This document shows positions 6,395 through 38,522 of a stretch of DNA of 64,000 bases, piece by piece; the first letter of the stretch is position 1; each line of letters starts with the position of its first letter. The stretch comes from Sphingomicrobium lutaoense. Lineage in GTDB: Bacteria > Pseudomonadota > Alphaproteobacteria > Sphingomonadales > Sphingomonadaceae. The stretch covers positions 1,311,317 to 1,375,316 of the forward strand of contig NZ_JACICF010000001.1 of NCBI RefSeq assembly GCF_014195685.1, in the 5' to 3' direction. The translations under genes and the position numbers were made by a program. A model generated the notes under the pieces. It saw nothing but the letters and a program-made list of their open reading frames with translations. It was not told the origin of the DNA and did not search any database.

Positions 6395-7093
6395 CTAGAG
6401 TTGGCTGTCGGCTGGATCCCACAACAGTGCCAGCGCCATCGAGGCGATCGCCATCGTCCGCTTCACGCCGGGATCGAGCGCAGGCGCGCTGATCAGGCGC
6501 GGCGTGCCGTTGAGTTCGATTGCGCCCACCGGCTCTCCGTCGCGATAGAAGAGATAGCCGATCGGCGTCTCGGTGGTGAGCGGGCTACCTTTCACGCCAT
6601 GCACCGAGCGAAAAGCGAGTATTTCTCCGCCCAGCGCGATTTCGCCGCGCCGTTCATGCTGTGCGAGCATTCCGCCGATGCCGTCCGCGCTTTCCTGCAG
6701 TTCGAAGCGCGCCGGGAAGGAGCGTCCATCGACGAGGAAGTCGCAGCGATAGGCCATCGGACTGGTAACGAAACTCGCGCTGCCCAGCGTCAGGGCGCGC
6801 TCGCGCATCCGGCAACGGGCATCGACCATTCCGCTGAGCATCGGACCCTCGATGGTGAAATCGGCATGGGCCGCGCGGCGGTCGGCGTTGAAGAAGCGCA
6901 GCCGTGTCTCCGAGCGCTCGTAGCCGCCAGAATATCCGGCGAAGCGGAAACGGCCGTGGGTCCAGCCATCGATGCCCAGAACGGGCTCGGCAGACTGGCC
7001 GGCCAGTGAAGAAGGAAGCTGCATTTGTGCAGGTTGGAGGCTGGCACAGCCCCCGAGCGCCAAAGTGGCGGCAATCAAGGCGACTCGCATCAT
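6395..7093 (-). CDS. putative outer-membrane lipoprotein
   Basis: 232-aa protein with a lipoprotein signal peptide: a hydrophobic stretch followed by the lipobox LGGC, cleaved before Cys15. The mature part has no motif I can assign; it looks beta-rich, with repeated short strands (SAEPVLGIDGW, RFRFAGYSGG) and the segment GYLFYRDGEPVGAIELNG. The start could be the first or second Met. It is convergent with purQ across 7 bases. Function unknown. Confidence 0.75.
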   Translation of the reverse strand: MMRVALIAATLALGGCASLQPAQMQLPSSLAGQSAEPVLGIDGWTHGRFRFAGYSGGYERSETRLRFFNADRRAAHADFTIEGPMLSGMVDARCRMRERALTLGSASFVTSPMAYRCDFLVDGRSFPARFELQESADGIGGMLAQHERRGEIALGGEILAFRSVHGVKGSPLTTETPIGYLFYRDGEPVGAIELNGTPRLISAPALDPGVKRTMAIASMALALLWDPADSQL

Positions 7094-24077: not shown

Positions 24078-25268
24078 TTACTTCGTGATCTTGCCGACAA
24101 CCCCCGCGCCGACGGTACGACCGCCTTCACGGATGGCGAAGCGAAGACCCTGGTCCATAGCGATCGGAGCGATCAGCTTGACACCCAGCGAGACATTGTC
24201 GCCCGGCATGACCATTTCCGTACCTTCCGGCAGGACCACTTCGCCCGTCACGTCGGTCGTGCGGAAGTAGAACTGCGGACGGTAGTTGGCGAAGAACGGC
24301 GTGTGACGGCCGCCTTCGTCCTTCGACAGGACATAGACTTCGGCTTCGAAGTCGGTGTGCGGGGTGATCGAACCCGGCTTGGCCAGAACCTGGCCGCGCT
24401 CGACTTCGTCACGACCGACGCCGCGGATCAGCGCACCGATGTTGTCGCCAGCCTGGCCCTGGTCGAGCAGCTTGCGGAACATTTCGACGCCGGTGACGGT
24501 CGTCTTGGTGGTGTCCTTGATGCCGACGATTTCGACTTCGTCGCCAACGTTGACGATGCCGGTTTCGACACGGCCGGTGACCACCGTACCGCGACCCGAG
24601 ATCGAGAACACGTCTTCGATCGGCATCAGGAAGTCCTTGTCGAGCGGACGATCCGGCTCGGGGATCCACTCGTCGACGGCGTCCATGAGCTTCAGGATCG
24701 CGTCCTGGCCGATTTCACGGTTGCTGTCTTCGAGGGCAGCAAGGGCCGAACCCGCGATGATCGGAATGTTGTCGCCGTCGAAGTCGCGCTTCGAAAGTTC
24801 TTCGCGGATTTCGAGTTCGACGAGCTCGAGCAGTTCGGGATCGTCGACCTGGTCGACCTTGTTGAGCCACACGACCATGGTCGGAACGCCGACCTGCTTG
24901 GCGAGCAGGATGTGCTCCTTGGTCTGCGGCATGGGGCCGTCAGCGGCCGAAACCACGAGGATCGCGCCGTCCATCTGGGCAGCACCGGTGATCATGTTCT
25001 TCACATAGTCGGCGTGGCCCGGGCAGTCGACGTGCGCATAGTGACGCTTGTCGGTTTCATATTCGACGTGCGCCGTCGAGATGGTGATGCCGCGCTCGCG
25101 CTCTTCCGGAGCCTTGTCGATGTTCGCGAAATCGACCGCTTCCGACTTGCCGGCTTCCGCCAGCGTCTTGGTGATCGCCGCGGTGAGCGACGTCTTGCCA
25201 TGGTCGACGTGACCGATGGTGCCGATGTTGACGTGCGGTTTGTTCCGCTCAAATTTTGCCTTCGCCAT
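24078..25268 (-). CDS. tuf: elongation factor Tu
   Basis: 396-aa EF-Tu GTPase. G1 GHVDHGKTS (residues 19-27), the G2 region with RGITI, G3 DCPGHADY, G4 NKVD and G5 SALAAL are intact. It delivers aminoacyl-tRNA to the ribosome. Only one tuf copy lies in the window; a second elsewhere is common in proteobacteria. Confidence 0.98.
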
Positions 25269-25341
25269 TATACGCCTCTTCTTGTCTTAATGGTGACGGA
25301 CGACGCCCGTTGCGAGCGCGCCCATAACGCCTAATTTCCCG

Positions 25342-27444
<2,103 letters not shown>

Positions 27445-27507
27445 GATAAATTCCTTCTGGGGGTTATGACCGCCCGCCCGGCGGGCAGGCGGCCATGACA
27501 GTCTGTT

Positions 27508-27978
27508 TTACCAACGGTAGTGGCTGAAGGCGCGGTTCGCTTCGGCCATGCGGTGCGTGTCTTCGCGCTTCTTCACCGCATTTCCGCGGTTCTGCGAAGC
27601 GTCCATCAGCTCGCCCGACAGGCGTGCGGCCATGGTCTTCTCGGCGCGGTTGCGCGCGGCCGAGATGAGCCAGCGGATCGCGAGGGCCTGGGCGCGCTCG
27701 GGGCGCACTTCGACGGGGACCTGGTAGGTCGCGCCGCCGACACGGCGCGAACGCACTTCGACCTGCGGCTTGATGTTGTTGAGCGCCTCGTGGAACACGT
27801 TCAGCGGCTCGGCCTTCATCCGCGCTTCGACATTGTCGAGCGCGCCATAGACGATGCGCTCGGCAACCGACTTCTTACCGTCGAGCATGATGTTGTTCAT
27901 GAACTTCGACAGGACGAGATCACCGAACTTGGGATCGGGAAGAATGACGCGCTTCTCTGGGCGACGACGACGGGACAT
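27508..27978 (-). CDS. rpsG: 30S ribosomal protein S7
   Basis: 156-aa S7 that nucleates the 30S head: [41 protein letters not shown]-like core, and [13 protein letters not shown] at the end. Normal length; 60 bases after rpsL. Confidence 0.98.
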
Positions 27979-28038
27979 ATTGAATTCCTTTTGCGAGCGG
28001 CGCGCCAGCCATCGGGCGGCGCGTCCGACGAAACCAGC

Positions 28039-28410
28039 TTACTTGGGGCGCTTGGCACCATATTTCGAACGGGACTGACGACGGTCCTTCACACCCTGGG
28101 TGTCGAGGACGCCGCGCAGAACGTGGTAACGCACACCCGGAAGGTCGCGCACACGGCCGCCGCGGATCAGCACCACGCTATGCTCCTGGAGGTTGTGGCC
28201 CTCGCCCGGAATATAGCTGATGACTTCGCGCTGGTTGGTCAGGCGCACCTTGGCCACCTTGCGAAGCGCCGAGTTCGGCTTTTTCGGGGTCGTCGTGTAG
28301 ACGCGGGTGCAGACGCCGCGCTTCTGCGGGTTCTGCTCCATCGCAGGGACCTTGGACTTGGTCTTCTGCTGGGTGCGGCCCTTGCGGACCAGCTGGTTAA
28401 TCGTCGGCAT
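28039..28410 (-). CDS. rpsL: 30S ribosomal protein S12 with Arg88
   Basis: 123-aa S12 of the decoding centre. [11 protein letters not shown] at the start and [17 protein letters not shown] carry Lys43. In [11 protein letters not shown] residue 88 is Arg (codon at 28147-28149) instead of the Lys usual in E. coli. Lys88-to-Arg is a well-known streptomycin-resistance change, so this strain is expected to be resistant through its native ribosome. First gene of the str-S10-spc cluster. Confidence 0.98.
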
Positions 28411-28594
28411 GAAGCCTTCACCTTTCTGTTGCCGGGCATCTCCCGGCGGTTACTTTGTTTCCGATAGGCCAAATGAAGGACGTGGCCCTCCCGGTTTCCC
28501 GGGCGGCTGCCCTTCAGTTCGTCCTGGCGGAACAATGTTCAGCTCAAATGTTCCAGCGCACGACGGAATCACACCACCGGCGCGGACGAGCGGC
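28411..28594 (-). promoter_or_regulatory. rpsL 5' leader with two hairpins
   Basis: About 180 untranslated bases precede rpsL. Transcript elements: CCCGG-GAAA-CCGGG, a stem capped by a GNRA tetraloop, and GCCGGG-AGATG-CCCGGC just before the AAAGGTGAAG ribosome site. The second could occlude or expose the site. Regulation by S7 or S12 is possible but not shown. Confidence 0.45.
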
Positions 28595-28623
28595 CCATTA
28601 AGAGATATGCTGCATCGCGTCAA
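28595..28623 (-). promoter_or_regulatory. housekeeping promoter of the str-S10-spc cluster
   Basis: On the minus strand TTGACG (28618-28623), a 17-base spacer, and TAATGG (28595-28600), a near-consensus sigma-70 promoter. It is placed about 185 bases ahead of rpsL, the first gene of the ribosomal supercluster. Confidence 0.75.
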
Positions 28624-28683
28624 CAGCAGGCGCGGCGGAAAGTGAGCGCAATCCGGCCACTTAGGGCCGGCAGGGCGCCTCGG

Positions 28684-29985
28684 TCATTCGACCACCACGC
28701 CCCGCGCCATCACGAAGGGCACCGACCGGAACGCCGCCGGGTCGACGAGCGGGTCGCCGCTCACCGCGATGATGTCGGCGCTCTTGCCTGCCTCGATCGT
28801 CCCGATTTCGTCCGAAAGACCCAAGAGGTCGGCGGCATTGACCGTCGCCGCGACGAGCGCGCCTTCCATCGTCATCCCGTTGGCGACCATCAGTTCGAAT
28901 TCATCGGCGTTGCGGCCATGCTTGGACACGCCCGCATCGGTGCCGAAGGCGATCTTCACGCCGCGCGGCACCAGCTGCTGCAATGATTTTCCGGTGATGT
29001 CGATGCGCCAGCGGATCTTGGCGAGCACGTCGGGCGAATAGGCGCCCGCATTGGCGGCCAGCCGCTCCTTGTAGCCGTTCACGGTCGAAAGCGTGGGAAC
29101 ATAATAGGTGTCCGACCGCGCCCAGGCGTCGATCACTTCCTCGGTAAGGATCGTGCCATGCTCGATGCTGTCCACCCCGAGCTTGAGCGCAAGGAGAATG
29201 CCGTCCGCGCCATGGGCATGGACCGCCACTTCCTTGTCATAGAGGCGCGCAGTCTCGACGATCGCGCGGGCCTCGTCCTCGAACATCTGGGCGCCCAGCC
29301 CCGCGCCGATCCGGCTGTTGACCCCGCCGGTCGACGCAAACTTGATGACGTCGGCCCCGCGTGCGACCTGCAATCGCACCGCACGGCGGCATTGCGCCGG
29401 ACCGTCGCAGGTATTGCCCTTCTCCTCGAACAGGGGGCGGAATTCGTCGCGCCAGCCGAGCGCGCCGTCCATATGACCGGTGGTCGCCGAAAGGCTGACG
29501 CCCGCATCGACGATGCGCGGTCCCTGCACCATCCCGTCCTCGACCGCCTTCGCCAGCGCGAGCGTCGCGCCCGTGCCATCGCCAAGGTTACGCACCGTGG
29601 TGAAACCGGCGCGCAGCGTCTTCATGCCATTGGCATAGGCATTGAGCGCGAACCAACCGTCCGAGCGCTCCATCGACTGCATCGCGCGCGCCACCCCGCC
29701 CTCGTCGCTTGAGAGGTGGACATGGCTGTCGATGAGGCCCGGCAGCACGGTCTTGTCGCCGAGGTCGATCAGCCGTGCCCCCTCGGGCGCGGGCTGATGC
29801 CCCGCGCTCACCGAGCGGATGCGCCCGTCCTCGACGATGATGGTCGAAGGGCCTTGGACGCCCTCACCCGGCACGGCGATCAGCCGTCCGGCATGGATGA
29901 CGATCGGCTCGGCCATCGCCGCGCTGCCCATCGCGAGGGCAAGCCCCGCGGCAAAAATCCGGTTTACTGATGCTGCAAGGCCCAA
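28684..29985 (-). CDS. exported metal-dependent amidohydrolase (copy B)
   Basis: 433-aa member of the imidazolonepropionase/prolidase-like amidohydrolases. Signal peptide to about residue 25 (cleavage after MGSAAMA); metal ligands in DSHVHLSSD, a Lys in IKFASTGG, HAHGADG, IEHGTI and the Asp in FGTDAGV. The start is TTG 29985, with GGAGGAG eight bases before it, lying inside the remnant of another amidohydrolase gene; an internal ATG at 29931 would cut the signal peptide. It probably hydrolyses a cyclic amide or a dipeptide in the periplasm; the substrate is unknown. Confidence 0.85.
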   Translation of the reverse strand: MGLAASVNRIFAAGLALAMGSAAMAEPIVIHAGRLIAVPGEGVQGPSTIIVEDGRIRSVSAGHQPAPEGARLIDLGDKTVLPGLIDSHVHLSSDEGGVARAMQSMERSDGWFALNAYANGMKTLRAGFTTVRNLGDGTGATLALAKAVEDGMVQGPRIVDAGVSLSATTGHMDGALGWRDEFRPLFEEKGNTCDGPAQCRRAVRLQVARGADVIKFASTGGVNSRIGAGLGAQMFEDEARAIVETARLYDKEVAVHAHGADGILLALKLGVDSIEHGTILTEEVIDAWARSDTYYVPTLSTVNGYKERLAANAGAYSPDVLAKIRWRIDITGKSLQQLVPRGVKIAFGTDAGVSKHGRNADEFELMVANGMTMEGALVAATVNAADLLGLSDEIGTIEAGKSADIIAVSGDPLVDPAAFRSVPFVMARGVVVE

Positions 29986-30140
29986 GGGACCATCTCCTCC
30001 ACGGGCGTTCCGCCCTAGATTACCGCCTCGATATGCTCGACTGCCGTGATGTCGCGCAAGGGATCGCCCGCGACGACCACCATGTCGGCATAGCGGCCGA
30101 CCTCGATCGCGGGGACATGACCGCTGCGCCCCAGCGCCTC
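29934..30140. repeat. 207-bp direct repeat, left copy
   Basis: This stretch matches 30548-30754 with no indels and about 21 mismatches (about 90% identity), at an offset of 614 bases. On the minus strand it holds a broken amidohydrolase C-terminus followed by the ribosome site and signal-peptide coding part of amidohydrolase B. It borders the low-GC insert with the 126-aa membrane protein gene. Confidence 0.9.
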
Positions 30141-30143
30141 AGC
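29964..30143 (-). pseudogene. amidohydrolase C-terminal remnant
   Basis: Translated on the minus strand this fragment reads AEALGRSGHVPAIEVGRY, then ADMVVVAGDPLRDI and finally VEEMVPWALQHQ and a stop. It is collinear with the last 60 residues of amidohydrolase A, but interrupted by an in-frame TAG (30015-30017) where A has Lys. It has no N-terminal part: the homology stops exactly where the foreign insert begins. Confidence 0.85.
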
Positions 30144-30519
30144 TTGGTTTTTGGCTCTCGAAAATGGCTCGATTCCGCTTCTCCTCCTCGGGGAAGTTTC
30201 TCGTGATCTCCTTTATGAGGAGTAAAAAAATGAGGGCTGCGAACACGCCGACCACGAGAGCGACTAGGTATTGCTGCTCCAGATAGACCAGTAGTCCTAC
30301 GGCGATCCCAACCAAACCGAAGAGTGCAATATGCAAAACCCACTCTTTAGGGCTTGCACGATATTTGGCGTGAACGCCCACCGGCCAGTTCTGCGAAAGT
30401 TCCTGATAGATTCGCCCCCCGATCAAAAGGCTCAATTGCCGATGTAATTTTACCAGCAAGAGGAAAGATGTAGCTATAGAAAAAAGCGCAACCAGCCCGA
30501 CGTCCCACACTATCTGCAT
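30139..30519 (-). CDS. three-helix membrane protein in low-GC insert (126 aa)
   Basis: 126-aa protein with three hydrophobic helices (about residues 3-25, 60-80 and 84-102) and a charged C-terminus (NFPEEEKRNRAIFE). Start ATG 30519. Base composition is visibly lower in GC (near 50%) than its neighbours, with A-runs and rare codons, indicating transfer. The stop TGA sits at the border of the left repeat, so the natural C-terminus may have been cut or changed. No family recognised. It lies alone between the two direct repeats. Confidence 0.65.
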   Translation of the reverse strand: MQIVWDVGLVALFSIATSFLLLVKLHRQLSLLIGGRIYQELSQNWPVGVHAKYRASPKEWVLHIALFGLVGIAVGLLVYLEQQYLVALVVGVFAALIFLLLIKEITRNFPEEEKRNRAIFESQKPS

Positions 30520-30547
30520 ACGTCAGCACCTGCCGCCGCCGCCCGCC

Positions 30548-30754
30548 CGAGGGCAAGCCCTGCAGCGAAAATTCGGCTTACTGACGCTGCAAGGCCCAAG
30601 GGACCATCTCCTCCACAGGCGTTCCGCCCTTGATCACCGCCTCGACATTCTCGACTGCCTTGATGTCGCGCAAGGGATCGCCCGCGACCACCACCATGTC
30701 GGCATAGCGGCCGACCTTGATCGTGCCGACATCCGCGCTGCGGCCCAGCGCCTC
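30548..30754. repeat. 207-bp direct repeat, right copy
   Basis: Partner of 29934-30140. On the minus strand it encodes the intact C-terminus of amidohydrolase A and, after its stop, a fossil of the ribosome site, TTG start and signal peptide of amidohydrolase B (LGLAASVSRIFAAGLALG), which then runs into the foreign insert. Confidence 0.9.
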
Positions 30755-31882
30755 GGCGCCGTTGAGGGTCGCCGCGCGGATCGCTTCGAGCGGAGTCATT
30801 CCATATTCGGTCATCACCGAGAATTGCCCCGGCACCCAGCTCGGCGGCATCACGCCGACATCGGATCCGAACACCATCCGTACGCCCGCTTCGTGCGCCT
30901 TGCGGAAATTGTCCCGCTGCGCCTGCGCGATGTCGCGGTCCTTGCGAAGATTGACCTCGAGCACGCCGTTTTTGCGCCCCTCGGACTGGGTATAGTCGGT
31001 GTTGCGGATATCCATCGAGAACCACACCGGTCGAGCGCGGCTGGCGGCTAGGCGGATGCCTTCGTCATCGACGAGGCTGGCATGTTCGATCGTGTCGATG
31101 CCCGCGCGGATCGCGCGCTTAATTCCCTCGGCGCCATGCGCATGCGCCGCCGCGCGCACGCCCCACTGATGCGCCTCGTCGGCGATCGCGCGCAATTCCT
31201 CTTCGGAAAGCTGCGGCTGCCCGGGTTCGGTATTCATCGAGAAGACCCCGCCGGTAGCGCAGACCTTGATTACCTCGGCGCCGAACTTGCGCTGGCGCCG
31301 GACCTGGTAGCGTAGCTCGTCGACGCCGTCGCCAATCCCCTCTTCCTTGCCATCCTTCTCGAGGCTGGGGGGAAGAAAAGTGCTATCGCAATGCCCGCCG
31401 GTCGCGCCCAGCGAATAGCCTGCCGGGACGATCCGCGGGCCGACGACATAGCCATCCTCGATCGCCTGCTTCAGCCCGATCGCGGCGCGCTGGGTACTGC
31501 CGACCTGGCGCACCGTGGTGAAGCCCAGCTTGAGCATCGCTTCGCCCGCCGGGACCGCCGTGATCGGCCAGAAGCTGTCAGTATATTGGTAGCCGCGATA
31601 GCCGCCGATATTGGCGGGCCTGTCGAGATGGACATGCATGTCGATAAAGCCCGGCAGGAGCGTCTTGCCGGCATGGTCGATATGACGGTCCTCGCGCGAT
31701 AGCGGCGGCGGCTCGCCGGTCCCGATCGAACGGATGCGCCCGTCGTCACCGACGCGGATGAGCGGGCGCTCGACATAGCGCCCCCGCTCGACGTCGAGAT
31801 AGCGGTCGGCAGTGATATAGGTGTCGGCGGCAGCGGCACCCGGCACAGCAGCGCCGAGCGCCAGCAGAATCGCAAATCGCAT
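30578..31882 (-). CDS. exported metal-dependent amidohydrolase (copy A)
   Basis: 434-aa paralogue of the amidohydrolase downstream. ATG 31882 gives a signal peptide (MRFAILLALGAAVPGAAA); upstream in-frame codons are not conserved. Metal-site segments: DMHVHLDRP, IKVCATGG, AHAHGAEG, IEHASL and FGSDVGV. Its C-terminus lies in the right-hand direct repeat. The two paralogues were probably once directly adjacent, with the downstream ribosome site inside this gene's 3' end. Likely periplasmic; the substrate is not determined. Confidence 0.85.
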   Translation of the reverse strand: MRFAILLALGAAVPGAAAADTYITADRYLDVERGRYVERPLIRVGDDGRIRSIGTGEPPPLSREDRHIDHAGKTLLPGFIDMHVHLDRPANIGGYRGYQYTDSFWPITAVPAGEAMLKLGFTTVRQVGSTQRAAIGLKQAIEDGYVVGPRIVPAGYSLGATGGHCDSTFLPPSLEKDGKEEGIGDGVDELRYQVRRQRKFGAEVIKVCATGGVFSMNTEPGQPQLSEEELRAIADEAHQWGVRAAAHAHGAEGIKRAIRAGIDTIEHASLVDDEGIRLAASRARPVWFSMDIRNTDYTQSEGRKNGVLEVNLRKDRDIAQAQRDNFRKAHEAGVRMVFGSDVGVMPPSWVPGQFSVMTEYGMTPLEAIRAATLNGAEALGRSADVGTIKVGRYADMVVVAGDPLRDIKAVENVEAVIKGGTPVEEMVPWALQRQ

Positions 31883-31939
31883 GGCAGTTCCCCAGTTACG
31901 CGGACATGAGATTAATCCGCGCGACGGGAACGGCAAGCG

Positions 31940-33355
31940 TCAGATGTGCAACACCCGCCCATAGGCCGCGAGGACGCTTTCATGCATCATCTCGCTCAGC
32001 GTGGGATGCGGGAAGACGGTGTTCATGAAATCCTCTTCCACCAGTTCGGCCTGCTTGCCCACGGTATAACCCTGGATGAGTTCGGTGACTTCGGCGCCGA
32101 TCATGTGCGCGCCAAGGAGTTCGCCCGTCTCGGCATCGAACACGGTCTTGATAAAGCCCTCGGTCTCGCCCAGCGCGATCGCCTTGCCATTGCCGATGAA
32201 GGGGAATTTACCGACCTTGACCTTGTGTCCCGCTTCCTTGGCGGCCTTCTCGGTCATGCCCACCGAGGCGACCTGCGGATGGCAATAGGTGCAGCCCGGG
32301 ATATTCTTCACGTCCATCGCGTGGGGATGAACATCCTTGTTGCCCATTTCCTGCGCGATCGCCTCGACGCAGATGATGCCTTCATGGCTCGCCTTGTGCG
32401 CCAGCCAGGGCGGCGCGGTGACATCGCCGATCGCCCAGATGCCCTTCACATTAGTGCGGCACATGGCGTCGGTGTCGATATGCCCCTTGGTGGTCTTCAC
32501 CTTGAGCTTGTCGAGGCCGATATTCTCGGTGTTGGGCAGGATGCCGATGGCGACGATGCAGTGGGAGAATTTGCGCTCCTCGACCTTGCCCTTGGCATCC
32601 TTGATCTTGGCGGTGACGCCCGACTTTCCGGCCTTGAGGTCCTCGACCCCCGCGCCCGCCATGATTTCCATGCCCTGCTTCTTGAGGCTCTTGGCGAGTT
32701 CGGCGGAAATATCGTCATCCTCGACCGGCACGATCCGGTCGAGCATCTCGACGACGGTCACATTGGCGCCCATGTCATTGTAGAAGCTCGCGAATTCGAT
32801 TCCGATCGCGCCCGAGCCGATGACCAGCAGGTCCTTGGGCATTTCCTTGGGTACCATCGCGTGGCGATAGGTCCAGATGCGCTCCCCGTCGGCCTTGGCG
32901 AAAGGCAGGTCGCGTGCCCGCGCGCCGGTGGCGACGATGATATGCTTGGCGGCAAGCTGGCTCTTCTTGCCCTTGTCGTCGGTGATGGTGAGCTTGCCGA
33001 CGCCGTCGATATGGCCGGTGCCCATGTGGACGTCGATCTTGTTCTTCTTCATCAGGCCGGTGACGCCCTGGTTCAATTGCTTGGCGACCGCGCGGCTGCG
33101 CGCGACGACCTTGTCGAGGTCCATGCCCACGCCCTCGGCCTTCAGGCCATATTTCTCGGCATGCTTCATATTGTGGAGCACCTCGCCCGAGCGGAGCAGC
33201 GCCTTGGTGGGAATGCAGCCCCAGTTGAGACAGATGCCGCCGAGGCTTTCGCGCTCGACGATCGCGGTCTTGAGGCCGAGCTGCGACGCGCGGATCGCCG
33301 CAACATAGCCGCCGGGCCCCGAGCCGAGGACGATGAGATCGTAATTGTCAGCCAC
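31940..33355 (-). CDS. lpdA: dihydrolipoyl dehydrogenase (pyruvate dehydrogenase-associated E3)
   Basis: 471-aa FAD/NAD disulfide oxidoreductase that reoxidises lipoyl groups. FAD motif GSGPGGYVAA, redox pair Cys42/Cys47 in ICLNWGCIPTK, NAD-binding GSGAIGIEFAS, FAD-binding GDVT, and the C-terminal catalytic His-Glu in HPTLSEMMHES. It sits in the operon with pdhC, so it is assigned to the pyruvate dehydrogenase complex; a second E3 gene accompanies sucAB. Overlaps the preceding membrane protein gene by 8 bases. Confidence 0.96.
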   Translation of the reverse strand: MADNYDLIVLGSGPGGYVAAIRASQLGLKTAIVERESLGGICLNWGCIPTKALLRSGEVLHNMKHAEKYGLKAEGVGMDLDKVVARSRAVAKQLNQGVTGLMKKNKIDVHMGTGHIDGVGKLTITDDKGKKSQLAAKHIIVATGARARDLPFAKADGERIWTYRHAMVPKEMPKDLLVIGSGAIGIEFASFYNDMGANVTVVEMLDRIVPVEDDDISAELAKSLKKQGMEIMAGAGVEDLKAGKSGVTAKIKDAKGKVEERKFSHCIVAIGILPNTENIGLDKLKVKTTKGHIDTDAMCRTNVKGIWAIGDVTAPPWLAHKASHEGIICVEAIAQEMGNKDVHPHAMDVKNIPGCTYCHPQVASVGMTEKAAKEAGHKVKVGKFPFIGNGKAIALGETEGFIKTVFDAETGELLGAHMIGAEVTELIQGYTVGKQAELVEEDFMNTVFPHPTLSEMMHESVLAAYGRVLHI

Positions 33356-33758
33356 TTGGCGAACTCCTGTCTAAATCTGGACCTGCGGACCGGCGATCCG
33401 CGAAACGGAAGGTGAGAACGAAGATGATGGCGCTCGCCCCTCCCGCCAATCCGCCTTTCCAGGGAAACTCCCCGACCAGCGGATAGAGGATGAGGACCGG
33501 CCCGATAAGGCAAATGGCCGTCGTGAACAACAGCCGCCCCGCCGCGCTCGATGCGCGCGGCGCGAAACGATAGGCAGGCCAGGCCAGCAATATGCAGACC
33601 GCGAGCGCGAACGGCCCCGCGAGCGAATAGGCAAAGACAAGATCATCGCCGCCGATGCTTTGCCATTCGCCGAACTGGTCGAGCGCGAGAAAGAGCAAGG
33701 GGACCAGGGCCGCGGCAGCCAGCGCTGCCACCAGCACCCGCAACAGCTCCTTCGTCAC
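33348..33758 (-). CDS. small membrane protein in the pdhC-lpdA operon
   Basis: 136-aa protein with four predicted helices (about residues 7-27, 40-62, 74-95 and 103-118) and a polar Arg/Asp/Ser tail. It lies between an acyl-CoA thioesterase gene and lpdA and overlaps lpdA by 8 bases. No family recognised; not a known component of the pyruvate dehydrogenase complex. Confidence 0.7.
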   Translation of the reverse strand: MTKELLRVLVAALAAAALVPLLFLALDQFGEWQSIGGDDLVFAYSLAGPFALAVCILLAWPAYRFAPRASSAAGRLLFTTAICLIGPVLILYPLVGEFPWKGGLAGGASAIIFVLTFRFADRRSAGPDLDRSSPSG

Positions 33759-33764
33759 CGGTCT

Positions 33765-34130
33765 TCAGCCATCGCGGACGGGCCGCTTGCGATTGTCGGC
33801 ATCGACCGCCACGAAGGTGAAAAGGCCGCTGGCGACCTCCTGCTCGGCCTCGCCGTCGCGCTCGCGCCCGAGCGCGCGGGCGCGGATGGTCATCGAGGTC
33901 CGCCCCTCGCGCTCCATTTCGGCATAGACGCTGAGTTCATCGCCCACTTCCATCGCACCGGGAAATTCGAGGTCGGTCGCGGCGACCACAACCGCCTTGC
34001 CCTTCGAATGGCGCGAGGCGAGCGAGCCCGCCGCAAGCGCCATCTGGCTCATCAGCCAGCCGCCGAAAATCCCGCCATAGGGATTGGTGTCGGACGGCAT
34101 CGCCGTGACGCGGATGAGGGGTTCAGGCAC
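33765..34130 (-). CDS. acyl-CoA thioesterase (hotdog, YciA/ACOT type)
   Basis: 121-aa hotdog thioesterase. The motif MPSDTNPYGGIFGGWLMSQM carries the Asn and Gly-Gly active-site turn and ATDLEFPGAMEVGDE the following strand. It is expected to cleave acyl-CoA, perhaps acetyl- or short-chain CoA esters. The location between pdhC and lpdA suggests coordination with acetyl-CoA supply. Confidence 0.88.
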   Translation of the reverse strand: MPEPLIRVTAMPSDTNPYGGIFGGWLMSQMALAAGSLASRHSKGKAVVVAATDLEFPGAMEVGDELSVYAEMEREGRTSMTIRARALGRERDGEAEQEVASGLFTFVAVDADNRKRPVRDG

Positions 34131-34151
34131 AGCGGGCGTCCTTCCGACCTG

Positions 34152-35456
34152 CTACGCCACCATTCCCAGCGGATTCTCGACCAGTTCCTTGAAGACTTTC
34201 ATCAGCCGCGCGCCGTCAGCGCCGTCGATGGCGCGGTGGTCGAAGCTGCCGGTGGCGCTCATCACCGTCGCGATCTGCAGGCTGTCGTCGATGACATAGG
34301 GCCGCTTTTCGCCCGCGCTGATCGCCATGATCATCGCCTGGGGCGGATTGATCACCGCATCGAACTGCTTGATCCCGAACATGCCCATGTTCGAAAGGCT
34401 CGCGGTGCCGCCCTGATATTCGTGCGGCTGCAACTTGCCTTCCTTGGCACGCTCGGCCAGCTCCTTCATCTCGGTCGAGATTTTCGACAGCGACTTGTCA
34501 TTGGCCCCGACGATGATCGGGGTAATGAGGCCGCCCGGGATGCTCACCGCGACCGAGACATCGGCGCGCTCATATTTGATGAGTTCGCCGTCGCCGAAGC
34601 TGACATTGCATTCGGGCACTTCCATCAACGCGACGCCCAGCGCCTTGATGAGCATGTCGTTGACCGACAGCTTGATGCCGCGGCTTTCGAGGCCCGCATT
34701 CATTTCGCTGCGCAGCTTCAGAAGCTTGTCGAGCCGGATATCGACGGTGAGATAGATGTGCGGGATCTGTTGCTTCGCTTCGGTCAGGCGGCGCGCGATC
34801 GTCTTGCGCATGTTCGACAGCTTCTCGACGCTGTGCGGAATGTCGCCCGGATCGACCGTCTGTGCCTGCGGCGTGGGTGCGGCGGCTTTCTGCGGCGCAG
34901 CGGCGGCTCCGCCTGCCTTGTCGCCAAGATCGGCGCGAACGATCCGTCCACCCGGTCCCGAACCCTTGATGTTGGTGAGGTCGATGCCCTGCGCTTCGGC
35001 GAGGCGGCGTGCCAGCGGCGAGGCCTTCACCCGTTCGCCGTCCTTGCGCGGCGCGGCGGGCGCCTTGACGCCTTCGGCCTCGGCGGGAACGGCCTTTTTC
35101 TCGGGCTTGGGCGCTTCGTCGCGACCATAGCCCTTCTGCGCGGGCTGGGCCTCGGCCTTCTCTTCCTTCTTCTCTTGCTTGGCAGGCGCGGCGGCGGGCG
35201 CATCGACGCTCTCGCCTTCCTCGCCCAGCATCGCGATGACCGTGCCGACGGCGACATTGTCAGTGCCTTCCTCGACGAGGATCTTGAGCACGGTGCCTTC
35301 GTCGACCGCCTCGAATTCCATCGTCGCCTTGTCGGTCTCGATCTCGGCGAGGAGATCGCCCGAGGCCACCTCGTCGCCTTCCTTGACCAGCCATTTGGCA
35401 AGCGTTCCTTCCTCCATCGTCGGAGACAAGGCAGGCATTTTGAGTTCGGTGGCCAT
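34152..35456 (-). CDS. pdhC: pyruvate dehydrogenase complex E2 (dihydrolipoamide acetyltransferase)
   Basis: 434-aa E2 subunit. ATG 35456 ([17 protein letters not shown]) begins a single lipoyl domain with the lipoylated Lys in ETDKATMEF; an Ala/Lys/Glu-rich linker leads to the E3-binding domain ([15 protein letters not shown], near 135-170) and the catalytic core ending in [15 protein letters not shown] with the active His and Asp. pdhA and pdhB, normally just upstream, are absent; the divergent neighbour is a stress protein gene. Confidence 0.95.
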
Positions 35457-35600
35457 CGTGAAGATTCTTTCCCTTGTTGATCGGCATCCCACAAGCGCAT
35501 CAGGGGCGGTGCGGTCAAGGCCCGTGGACGCTCCACGCTTGCACGCGCCGCGCTTTTCGCGCAGCCTGACCGGCAGTCGGGGGCAAAAGGAGGGCCATGC

Positions 35601-36059
35601 GTGTCGAACACCTATCTGGTGATCATGAAAGAAGCGCCCGAGGCCCGTCTCGCGCTCCGCTTCGCCGCGCGCCGCGCTGCCAAGACCGACCGCAAGGTCG
35701 AAGTGCTCGCCGTGGTCGAGCCGCAGGATTTCGCGGCCTGGGGCGGCGTACAGGCAGCAATGGAAGAAGAAGAACGGCTACGCCTCGAGGCCACCATCGC
35801 TTCGACGGTGGGCGAACTGGTCGAGGAAACCGGCGTCAAGCCCAAGATCACCGTCCGATCGGGCGACAGCATCAAGGTCATCTGCAAGGAAATCGCCGAG
35901 CGCGACGATGTCGCCGCGCTGGTGCTTGGCGCCGCGCCCGGTGCCAATCCGGGGCCGATCGTCAAATATTTCACCGGTGAAGGCGCGGGCGACCTGCCCT
36001 GCCCCGTCCTCCTCATCCCGGGCGGGATGGACGACGACCGGATCGAGGAATTGAGCTAG
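35601..36059 (+). CDS. universal stress protein family
   Basis: 152-aa UspA-fold protein. GTG at 35601 preceded by AAAAGGAGGG. The N-terminal strand is followed by a helix rich in Ala and Arg ([21 protein letters not shown]), and the nucleotide-binding-type loop [18 protein letters not shown], where the canonical G-2x-G-9x-G motif is only partly kept. Its 3' end overlaps the convergent GAF protein gene by 4 bases. Probably a stress-induced regulatory or nucleotide-binding protein. Confidence 0.8.
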
Positions 36060-36948: not shown

Positions 36949-37588
36949 TCTTCCATTCCGCAAAGCGCTCGGGCAGCGGCGCGACGCCTTCCAGCGGATC
37001 GCCTTTCTTGCGCGGCACCGTCAGCTTCCAGGCGTGGAGCATCATCTCGCCGCCGGGATAGCCGTAGACGCGGTCGCCGATGATGCCATGGCCCAGCCCC
37101 TCGCGCGCATGCACGCGGATCTGATGGGTGCGCCCCGTCAGCGGCATGAAAAGGACAAGGCTTCTGTCCTCGCGCACCGCAAGCCTGCGCCAGCGCGTCC
37201 GCGCGGGCTTTCCATCGGGATCGCCCACCATCTTCCAGCCACTCTCGGCGCTCGACTGCTTGGACAGCGGAAGTTCAATCACCCCTTCCTCCTCGCCGAC
37301 TTCGCCGCCAACCAGCGCGACATAGCTTTTCTCGGCAAGATGCTGTTCGAACACCTGCTGGAACCAGCGCCGCGCCGGCTGGTGGCGGGCAAAAAGCAGG
37401 CAGCCCGACGTGTCCTGGTCGAGCCGGTGCATCGCAACCGGCGGCCGCTTGTAGTTGAGGCGCAATTCATCGATCCGCGCCTCGATGCTGTCGCCGCCCT
37501 TGCGGGGTGCATCGACCGGCAGGCCCGCGGGCTTGTCGAGCAAAATGACGTCGGCATCGACGAAAAGAATATGGTCTTCCAGGGACAT
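36932..37588 (-). CDS. RluA-family pseudouridine synthase
   Basis: 218-aa RNA pseudouridine synthase. Catalytic Asp is in AMHRLDQDTSGCLLFA; LDKPAGLPVDAP at the N-terminus and TGRTHQIRVHAREGLGHGIIGD near the C-terminus are family hallmarks. No S4 domain, as in the RluA/RluE-like short enzymes, so it may act on 23S rRNA or tRNA. I prefer ATG 37588 (MSLEDHILFVDAD) over the longer frame. Confidence 0.88.
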   Translation of the reverse strand: MSLEDHILFVDADVILLDKPAGLPVDAPRKGGDSIEARIDELRLNYKRPPVAMHRLDQDTSGCLLFARHQPARRWFQQVFEQHLAEKSYVALVGGEVGEEEGVIELPLSKQSSAESGWKMVGDPDGKPARTRWRRLAVREDRSLVLFMPLTGRTHQIRVHAREGLGHGIIGDRVYGYPGGEMMLHAWKLTVPRKKGDPLEGVAPLPERFAEWKNDVAG

Positions 37589-37639
37589 GGAACGCGCCCT
37601 CGCATGGCGTTTCCCTACAGACAAGCCTTGATCGAAACT

Positions 37640-37750
37640 GAGTCTTTGGGGTCACGCCCCCGCAAAAAGAACAAAAATTAACCTTTTCAACCTTTGTTAA
37701 CCTTTTGCCGCCAGATAGGTCATGGTTAATGGACGCTTAGACGTCGTTAA
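37640..37750 (+). promoter_or_regulatory. ctrA upstream control region
   Basis: Contains GAGTC (37640-37644), a GANTC site for CcrM methylation; three AACCTTT direct repeats (37680, 37689, 37699) on one helical face at 9-10 bp spacing; TTAA boxes at 37678 and 37697; and TTAA-N7-TTAG (37726-37740), close to the CtrA binding consensus TTAA-N7-TTAA. This layout suggests methylation-sensitive, autoregulated transcription as in Caulobacter; inferred. Confidence 0.6.
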
Positions 37751-37814
37751 AGGCCCGCAGGGATTTTGCACGAACCGGTGCTGAAGTCGGGCGCAGTAAC
37801 GGGGGAAAGAACAG

Positions 37815-38522
37815 ATGCGGGTACTCCTGATCGAAGATGAGGCCACGATCGCGCAGAGCATTGAGCTCATGTTGTCGACCGAAGGCTTCAACACCTACAC
37901 CACCGATCTGGGCGAAGAGGGCCTCGATCTGGGCAAGCTCTACGATTACGACATCATTCTTCTCGACCTCAACCTGCCCGATATGCACGGTTATGACGTC
38001 CTGAAGAAACTGCGCACCGCCAAGGTGCAGACGCCGGTCCTCATCCTGTCGGGCATCGGCGAAATGGATTCCAAGGTGCGCGCGCTGGGCTTCGGCGCCG
38101 ACGATTATGTCACCAAGCCTTTCCACCGCGACGAACTCGTTGCCCGCATCCACGCGATCGTCCGCCGTTCGAAGGGCCATTCGCAGTCGGTCATCCGCAC
38201 CGGCAAGCTGGCGGTCAACCTCGATGCCAAGACGGTCGAAGTGGATGGCAACCGCGTCCACCTTACGGGCAAGGAATATGCGATGCTGGAGCTTCTCTCG
38301 CTCCGCAAGGGCACCACGCTCACCAAGGAAATGTTCCTCAACCATCTCTATGGCGGGATGGACGAGCCCGAACTCAAGATCATCGACGTCTTCATCTGCA
38401 AGCTTCGCAAGAAATTGAGCCTCGCTTGCGGGGGCGACAATTATATCGAGACGGTCTGGGGCCGCGGCTATGTGCTGCGCGACCAGGAAGAAGACAAGGG
38501 CGCCGACGAAGCGGCGGCCTGA
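37815..38522 (+). CDS. ctrA: cell-cycle response regulator CtrA
   Basis: 235-aa OmpR-family regulator. Receiver domain residues 1-115 with phosphoacceptor Asp51 ([12 protein letters not shown]) and Lys in [11 protein letters not shown]; a winged-helix DNA-binding domain follows ([39 protein letters not shown]). It ends in DEAAA, resembling the C-terminal alanine signal through which ClpXP degrades Caulobacter CtrA. It controls cell cycle and polar functions in alphaproteobacteria. Own promoter region and terminator. Confidence 0.97.

Follow-up and report, generated by a model that had tools for sequence, protein, structure and literature searches.

Foreign DNA entry accompanied by local duplication

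Template switching of the FoSTeS/MMBIR type can produce an insertion together with a local duplication in a single event and requires no homology in the donor. The locus described here likewise combines an insertion with a local duplication but, unlike that process, offers no clear proof of microhomology at its joints. When a plasmid entered E. coli by conjugation, 56 of 60 clones gave a PCR product diagnostic of partial target duplication, and in the 14 sequenced clones the duplications measured 109-950 bp, which the authors explained by single crossovers of shortened circles (PMC3240628). Here, too, the insert lies between direct repeats a few hundred bp long; however, whereas plasmid and homology were engineered in E. 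coli (PMC3240628), this event is natural, involves one gene, and is old enough for its repeat copies to stand 10% apart. Homology-facilitated illegitimate recombination, a term applied to S. pneumoniae, A. baylyi and P. stutzeri, resembles it in that a short homologous stretch helps foreign DNA in with a small net gain (donor homology being putative at our locus), and differs in that a deletion of resident DNA is predicted beside the insert, in contrast to the duplication found here (PMC3240628). Finally, transformation can create tandem duplications (merodiploids) in S. pneumoniae, where a donor fragment bridging two places leaves a tandem duplication there, much as might be envisaged for this locus; unlike the latter, those duplications reach almost half the genome and need a repeat in the recipient (PMC3784515). 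The type of event is already known, and the locus is a well-supported and fairly clean case of it that introduces no new mechanism. A limited search of the open-access literature brought up no paper describing gene overlaps that took in foreign genes by being duplicated.

A gene junction present twice

The whole stretch of DNA that was analysed (the window, 64,000 nucleotides of Sphingomicrobium lutaoense) contains the following features around the junction of two amidohydrolase genes.

28684-29985, minus strand: gene2 (amidohydrolase B), 433 aa, TTG start, frame intact, Pfam Amidohydro_1
29934-30140, minus strand: downstream repeat copy (D), a dead gene1 tail with an in-frame TAG that still supplies the ribosome site, start and signal-peptide start of gene2
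30139-30519, minus strand: small membrane protein gene (an ORF), 126 aa, three hydrophobic stretches recognised by eye
30144-30536, minus strand: inserted foreign DNA, about 390 bp, one coding frame with its ribosome site, delimited by blastn to the locus of genome G303
30510-30599, minus strand: truncated gene2 leader frame, 29 codons from TTG to TAG, by direct reading
30548-30754, minus strand: upstream repeat copy (U), the true gene1 end plus a dead 5' gene2 fragment, 21/207 mismatches to copy D
30578-31936, minus strand: gene1 (amidohydrolase A), 452 aa, NCBIfam NF051886 Xaa-Pro dipeptidase, frame intact

The order along the minus strand is a gene at 33355-31940, which we take to be lipoamide-dehydrogenase-like (lpd-like), followed by gene1 (31936-30578), the 126-aa gene (30519-30139) and gene2 (29985-28684). 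Gene1 matches Pfam Amidohydro_1 and scores 619.9 bits against NF051886, above the curated cutoff of 500, whereas gene2 (327) falls under it; in congener G018, the respective counterparts share 85.6% amino acid identity with gene1 and 79.7% with gene2, the latter across residues 26-433. The 29-codon leader frame ends on a stop codon that falls in the opening 10 nt of the 126-aa gene, and gene2 starts 153 nt past the stop of that gene.

The two direct repeats are exactly as originally predicted, 207 bp long and ungapped, and the roughly 21 mismatches of that prediction were counted as 21; gapped blastn widens them to 29918-30143 and 30532-30757 (227 columns, 88%). The pair scores 281 bits, whereas 50 first-order Markov sequences simulated from 25001-36000 reached 37.4 bits at most. 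When the plus strand of the window was compared with itself at E <= 1e-6, no other close pair emerged, the remaining two rows joining positions some 25 kb apart. The prediction that the repeats span the 3' end of amidohydrolase A together with the ribosome site and signal-peptide start of amidohydrolase B also holds, all on the minus strand: each comprises the final 58 gene1 codons with their stop, the gene2 ribosome site, its TTG start and the first signal-peptide codons, with ribosome site and TTG falling inside the last codons of gene1.

The same site in related species

How is this junction organised where no insert is present? Matches to gene1 were sought across the genus in 71 genomes, its own included, and the 30 best, again with its own, were taken as loci with 1.5 kb on each side of gene1; the comparison genomes are congeners of other species. 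In four of the 29 congener loci (G018, G034, G001 and G002), which are also the best-scoring ones, gene2 is joined directly to gene1 without an insert, the two genes overlapping by 25, 25, 28 and 25 nt, respectively. Their gene2 ATG lies inside the final codons of gene1, preceded by a ribosome site, GAGGAG, which likewise belongs to the coding sequence of gene1, and the TTG of gene2 in our genome occupies the same aligned point. Because the four best-scoring congeners overlap directly and share this start position, an overlapping gene pair free of any insert was likely the ancestral state in the clade, as judged from the alignments. This starting state rests on four genomes, and G061, the fifth by score, which is about as similar in gene1 (75% amino acid identity, versus 74% for G002), has no gene2 nearby. 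It belongs to the 16 of 29 loci with no gene2 within 1.5 kb, while at the other nine a relative of gene2 (56-61% amino acid identity, part covered) lies approximately 0.5-1.2 kb downstream with other DNA in between.

The comparison with relatives that the original prediction proposed thus speaks for insertion, in that A is followed directly by B in the four best-scoring congeners; conversely, the arrangement is not one that all relatives carry, as the prediction would have expected of an old, stable feature. Its description of the locus as a recombination scar with cargo is borne out by these four insert-free junctions together with a homologue of the cargo at an unrelated locus (see below).

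Some further observations concern the neighbourhood. Eight of the nine gapped loci (L044, L045, L046, L048, L052, L062, L065 and L067) share an ORF family in the gap, a cupin in the two that were scanned (L045 and L067); as a source of the insert, the congener gap ORFs were discarded, the best blastp match of the 126-aa protein having E = 1.6. A second gene1 tail in G090, 99.2% identical to the first, lies on another contig and ends at the contig end, and was taken to represent a redundant contig. In our genome gene1 begins only a few bases after the lpd-like gene (31936-31940 of the window); the corresponding distance is about 0.4-0.5 kb in G034 and G001 and about 1.2 kb in G018.

The insert contains one gene of other origin

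Homology between the repeats stops at 30143 and resumes at 30532, so that the borders of the insert are known to about 10 bp. The original prediction had placed some 400 bp of lower-GC DNA with one membrane protein gene between the repeats, and the analysis of GC, GC3 and ORFs agrees with it: the GC content of 30141-30547 is 0.523 (about 0.52, compared with about 0.64 in the surroundings), and the 126-aa frame has a GC of 0.503 and a GC3 of 0.60, as opposed to means of 0.64 and 0.75 for a background of 47 mechanically chosen ORFs, some of them probably non-genes. Of 3180 sliding 407-bp windows (step 20), only four match or undercut the insert in GC; two of these fall on the insert and two lie near 37.6 kb. 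At 37541-38027 the window reaches a second minimum, with a GC no higher than that of the insert.

None of the 70 other congeners matches the 126-aa protein at E <= 0.001 (best E 0.0075). In 397 genomes drawn from the family, its own included, there is one strong match, in G303 from another genus (73% identity over residues 1-124), whereas the remaining five genomes of that genus lack one; six more family genomes show weak partial matches (E 0.0006-0.01) within frames of more than 500 aa. Draws from the order (396 genomes) and the class (385), which include its own genome and share members with those before, each yielded two partial matches, again within larger frames (best E 3.8e-5). By blastn, the DNA of 30149-30536 aligns with the G303 locus at 72.5%, a match that reaches from near the stop codon to the ribosome site and little beyond. 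The G303 homologue has an ABC-transporter gene on one side and a LysR-type regulator gene on the other (named by eye from translations), together with two other small frames and with no amidohydrolases nearby, and the GC content is 0.50 in both gene copies. In light of the GC contrast (0.52 versus 0.64), the lack of a match in the 70 congeners and the unrelated location of the G303 homologue, the cargo is, on sequence grounds, a real gene of other origin than its flanks.

The dN of 0.20 and dS of 1.48 between cargo and G303 homologue (NG86; 0.24 and 0.79 by YN00) speak for selection on the protein during at least some of the history that separates the two. The open frame as such was considered too weak to prove selection, given that 17-58% of neutral simulations (substitutions only) keep the 126-aa frame open at 10-3% divergence. 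A structure model of the protein, computed without an alignment, is helical but of low global confidence (mean pLDDT 74.5, pTM 0.33), too weak to base a fold search on. The protein has no match among phages, plasmids and viral contigs or in NCBIfam, merely weak ones in PHROGs (best E 0.12), and its Pfam matches all fall below the curated cutoffs (best E 0.0009, PelG).

Two kinds of vehicle were considered and rejected. A transposon or other mobile element does not fit, since the insert carries no recombinase gene (its single frame is the small membrane protein), no terminal inverted repeats of at least 10 bp occur at its ends, and a target-site duplication would be far shorter than the direct repeats of 207 bp. 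An integron gene cassette was dismissed on the absence of GTTRRRY core sites at the borders, on both strands of 30100-30580.

How both neighbours could have survived

We consider it probable that one insertion event duplicated the resident junction around the foreign gene, and that the redundant halves decayed thereafter. Because the ribosome site and start of gene2 lie inside the last codons of gene1, a simple insertion would cut either the gene1 end or the gene2 start. A single event that copied or crossed over the resident junction would, by contrast, leave a left copy (U) completing gene1 and a right copy (D) restoring the start region of gene2, the duplication of the shared DNA thereby letting both genes survive. 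Since the insertion, the gene2 head in the left copy and the gene1 tail in the right copy would have decayed. The new gene would join the operon in the same direction as its neighbours and, as the stop of the truncated gene2 leader overlaps its first bases, it may be translated by re-initiation, its expression and coupling being presumed. As to the physical route, a small circle entering by single crossover, homology-facilitated illegitimate recombination or template switching during replication could each be envisaged, and the joints favour none of them. That the insert amounts to almost exactly one gene is odd for a random fragment and counts against this explanation.

Differences between the copies bear on the proposed order of events. 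Over 54 codons of the gene1 tail, U and D differ at 15 bases, whereas U differs from the four relatives at 40, 47, 41 and 42, and both copies share the TTG start and an indel relative to all four. When differences were polarised by the majority of the four relatives (several calls resting on two or three of them), those in the gene1 tail comprised nine derived in the spare copy D, four in the live copy U and three unclear, and those in the gene2 head, whose alignment contains gaps, two in the dead copy U, none in D and three unclear. Eight of the nine changes in the D tail fall at codon positions 1 or 2, a contrast that is not significant (Fisher P 0.14 to 0.37 over the four relatives), and this tail carries, besides its stop, D-to-H and G-to-P replacements at residues constant in the four relatives. 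Small as the counts are, they point to greater change, in each copy, of the half without a job. Because the copies share derived features and the spare gene1 tail has a stop and radical changes, they would also suggest, within the same small counts, that the resident junction was duplicated and then decayed, rather than that a long-functional or diverged allele was imported.

Other explanations of the duplicated junction

Could the second junction have come from outside? A foreign circle or linear piece might have carried the junction of a related species, already 10% diverged, together with the cargo, and have entered by one crossover. Such a divergence is plausible for a related species, and plasmid integration in E. 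coli gave partial duplications of 109-950 bp (PMC3240628). Yet the changes in copy D, few as they are, are mostly non-synonymous, include a stop and hit invariant residues, unlike those of an allele that functioned in its donor, and the two copies have features in common that the four relatives lack; an imported junction is quite improbable. Circular DNA integrated by single crossover, one of the two explanations originally offered, survives as a candidate route, but the differences between the copies fit resident duplication and decay better than they fit a junction brought in on the circle.

A tandem duplication of the junction that came first, with the foreign gene placed between the copies later, would yield an identical final structure, and small tandem duplications are common. 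It demands two events, the second at the border of the first, and is in our view unlikely, if slightly less so than the imported junction. The other explanation originally offered, a third tandem amidohydrolase that decayed and had its middle replaced, draws on the fact that the tail in copy D is a gene1-type C-terminus with a stop. A third amidohydrolase between gene1 and gene2 is absent, however, from all 29 congener loci (1.5 kb flanks), and no amidohydrolase sequence lies between the repeats, where the 400 bp match an unrelated gene, the G303 cargo gene; moreover, the spare tail is far nearer to its own gene1 tail than to that of any relative, so it is not an older paralogue. This origin is highly improbable and was abandoned.

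Significance of an overlap that carries cargo

As read here, a single insertion with duplication of the resident junction shows a foreign gene added inside an operon of overlapping genes with both neighbours unbroken; that the two copies have decayed unevenly hints at the half on which each neighbour depends. A repeat of a gene overlap around a compositionally odd gene is also a signature that can be searched for in other genomes. It is conceivable, as a generalisation on which we would place little weight, that overlapping, translationally coupled pairs may accept new genes only if the overlap is duplicated in the same event. Were this true, the locus would stand as the type case for a general way in which operons gain inner genes, and the signature would consist of a direct repeat of the overlap, reciprocal decay of the useless halves and coupling between the start of the cargo and the truncated leader.

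Repeats around the homologue in G303

In G303, the stretch that holds the cargo homologue is flanked by hairpin-forming intergenic repeats (L155:4617-4668 and 6401-6462), which occur in many copies in G303, G255, G194 and G373. As ends of a mobile element (L155:4617-6462) they were rejected, being found at other stretches too: 14 of 18 stretches, hand-picked partly for the closeness of repeat copies, hold two such repeats.
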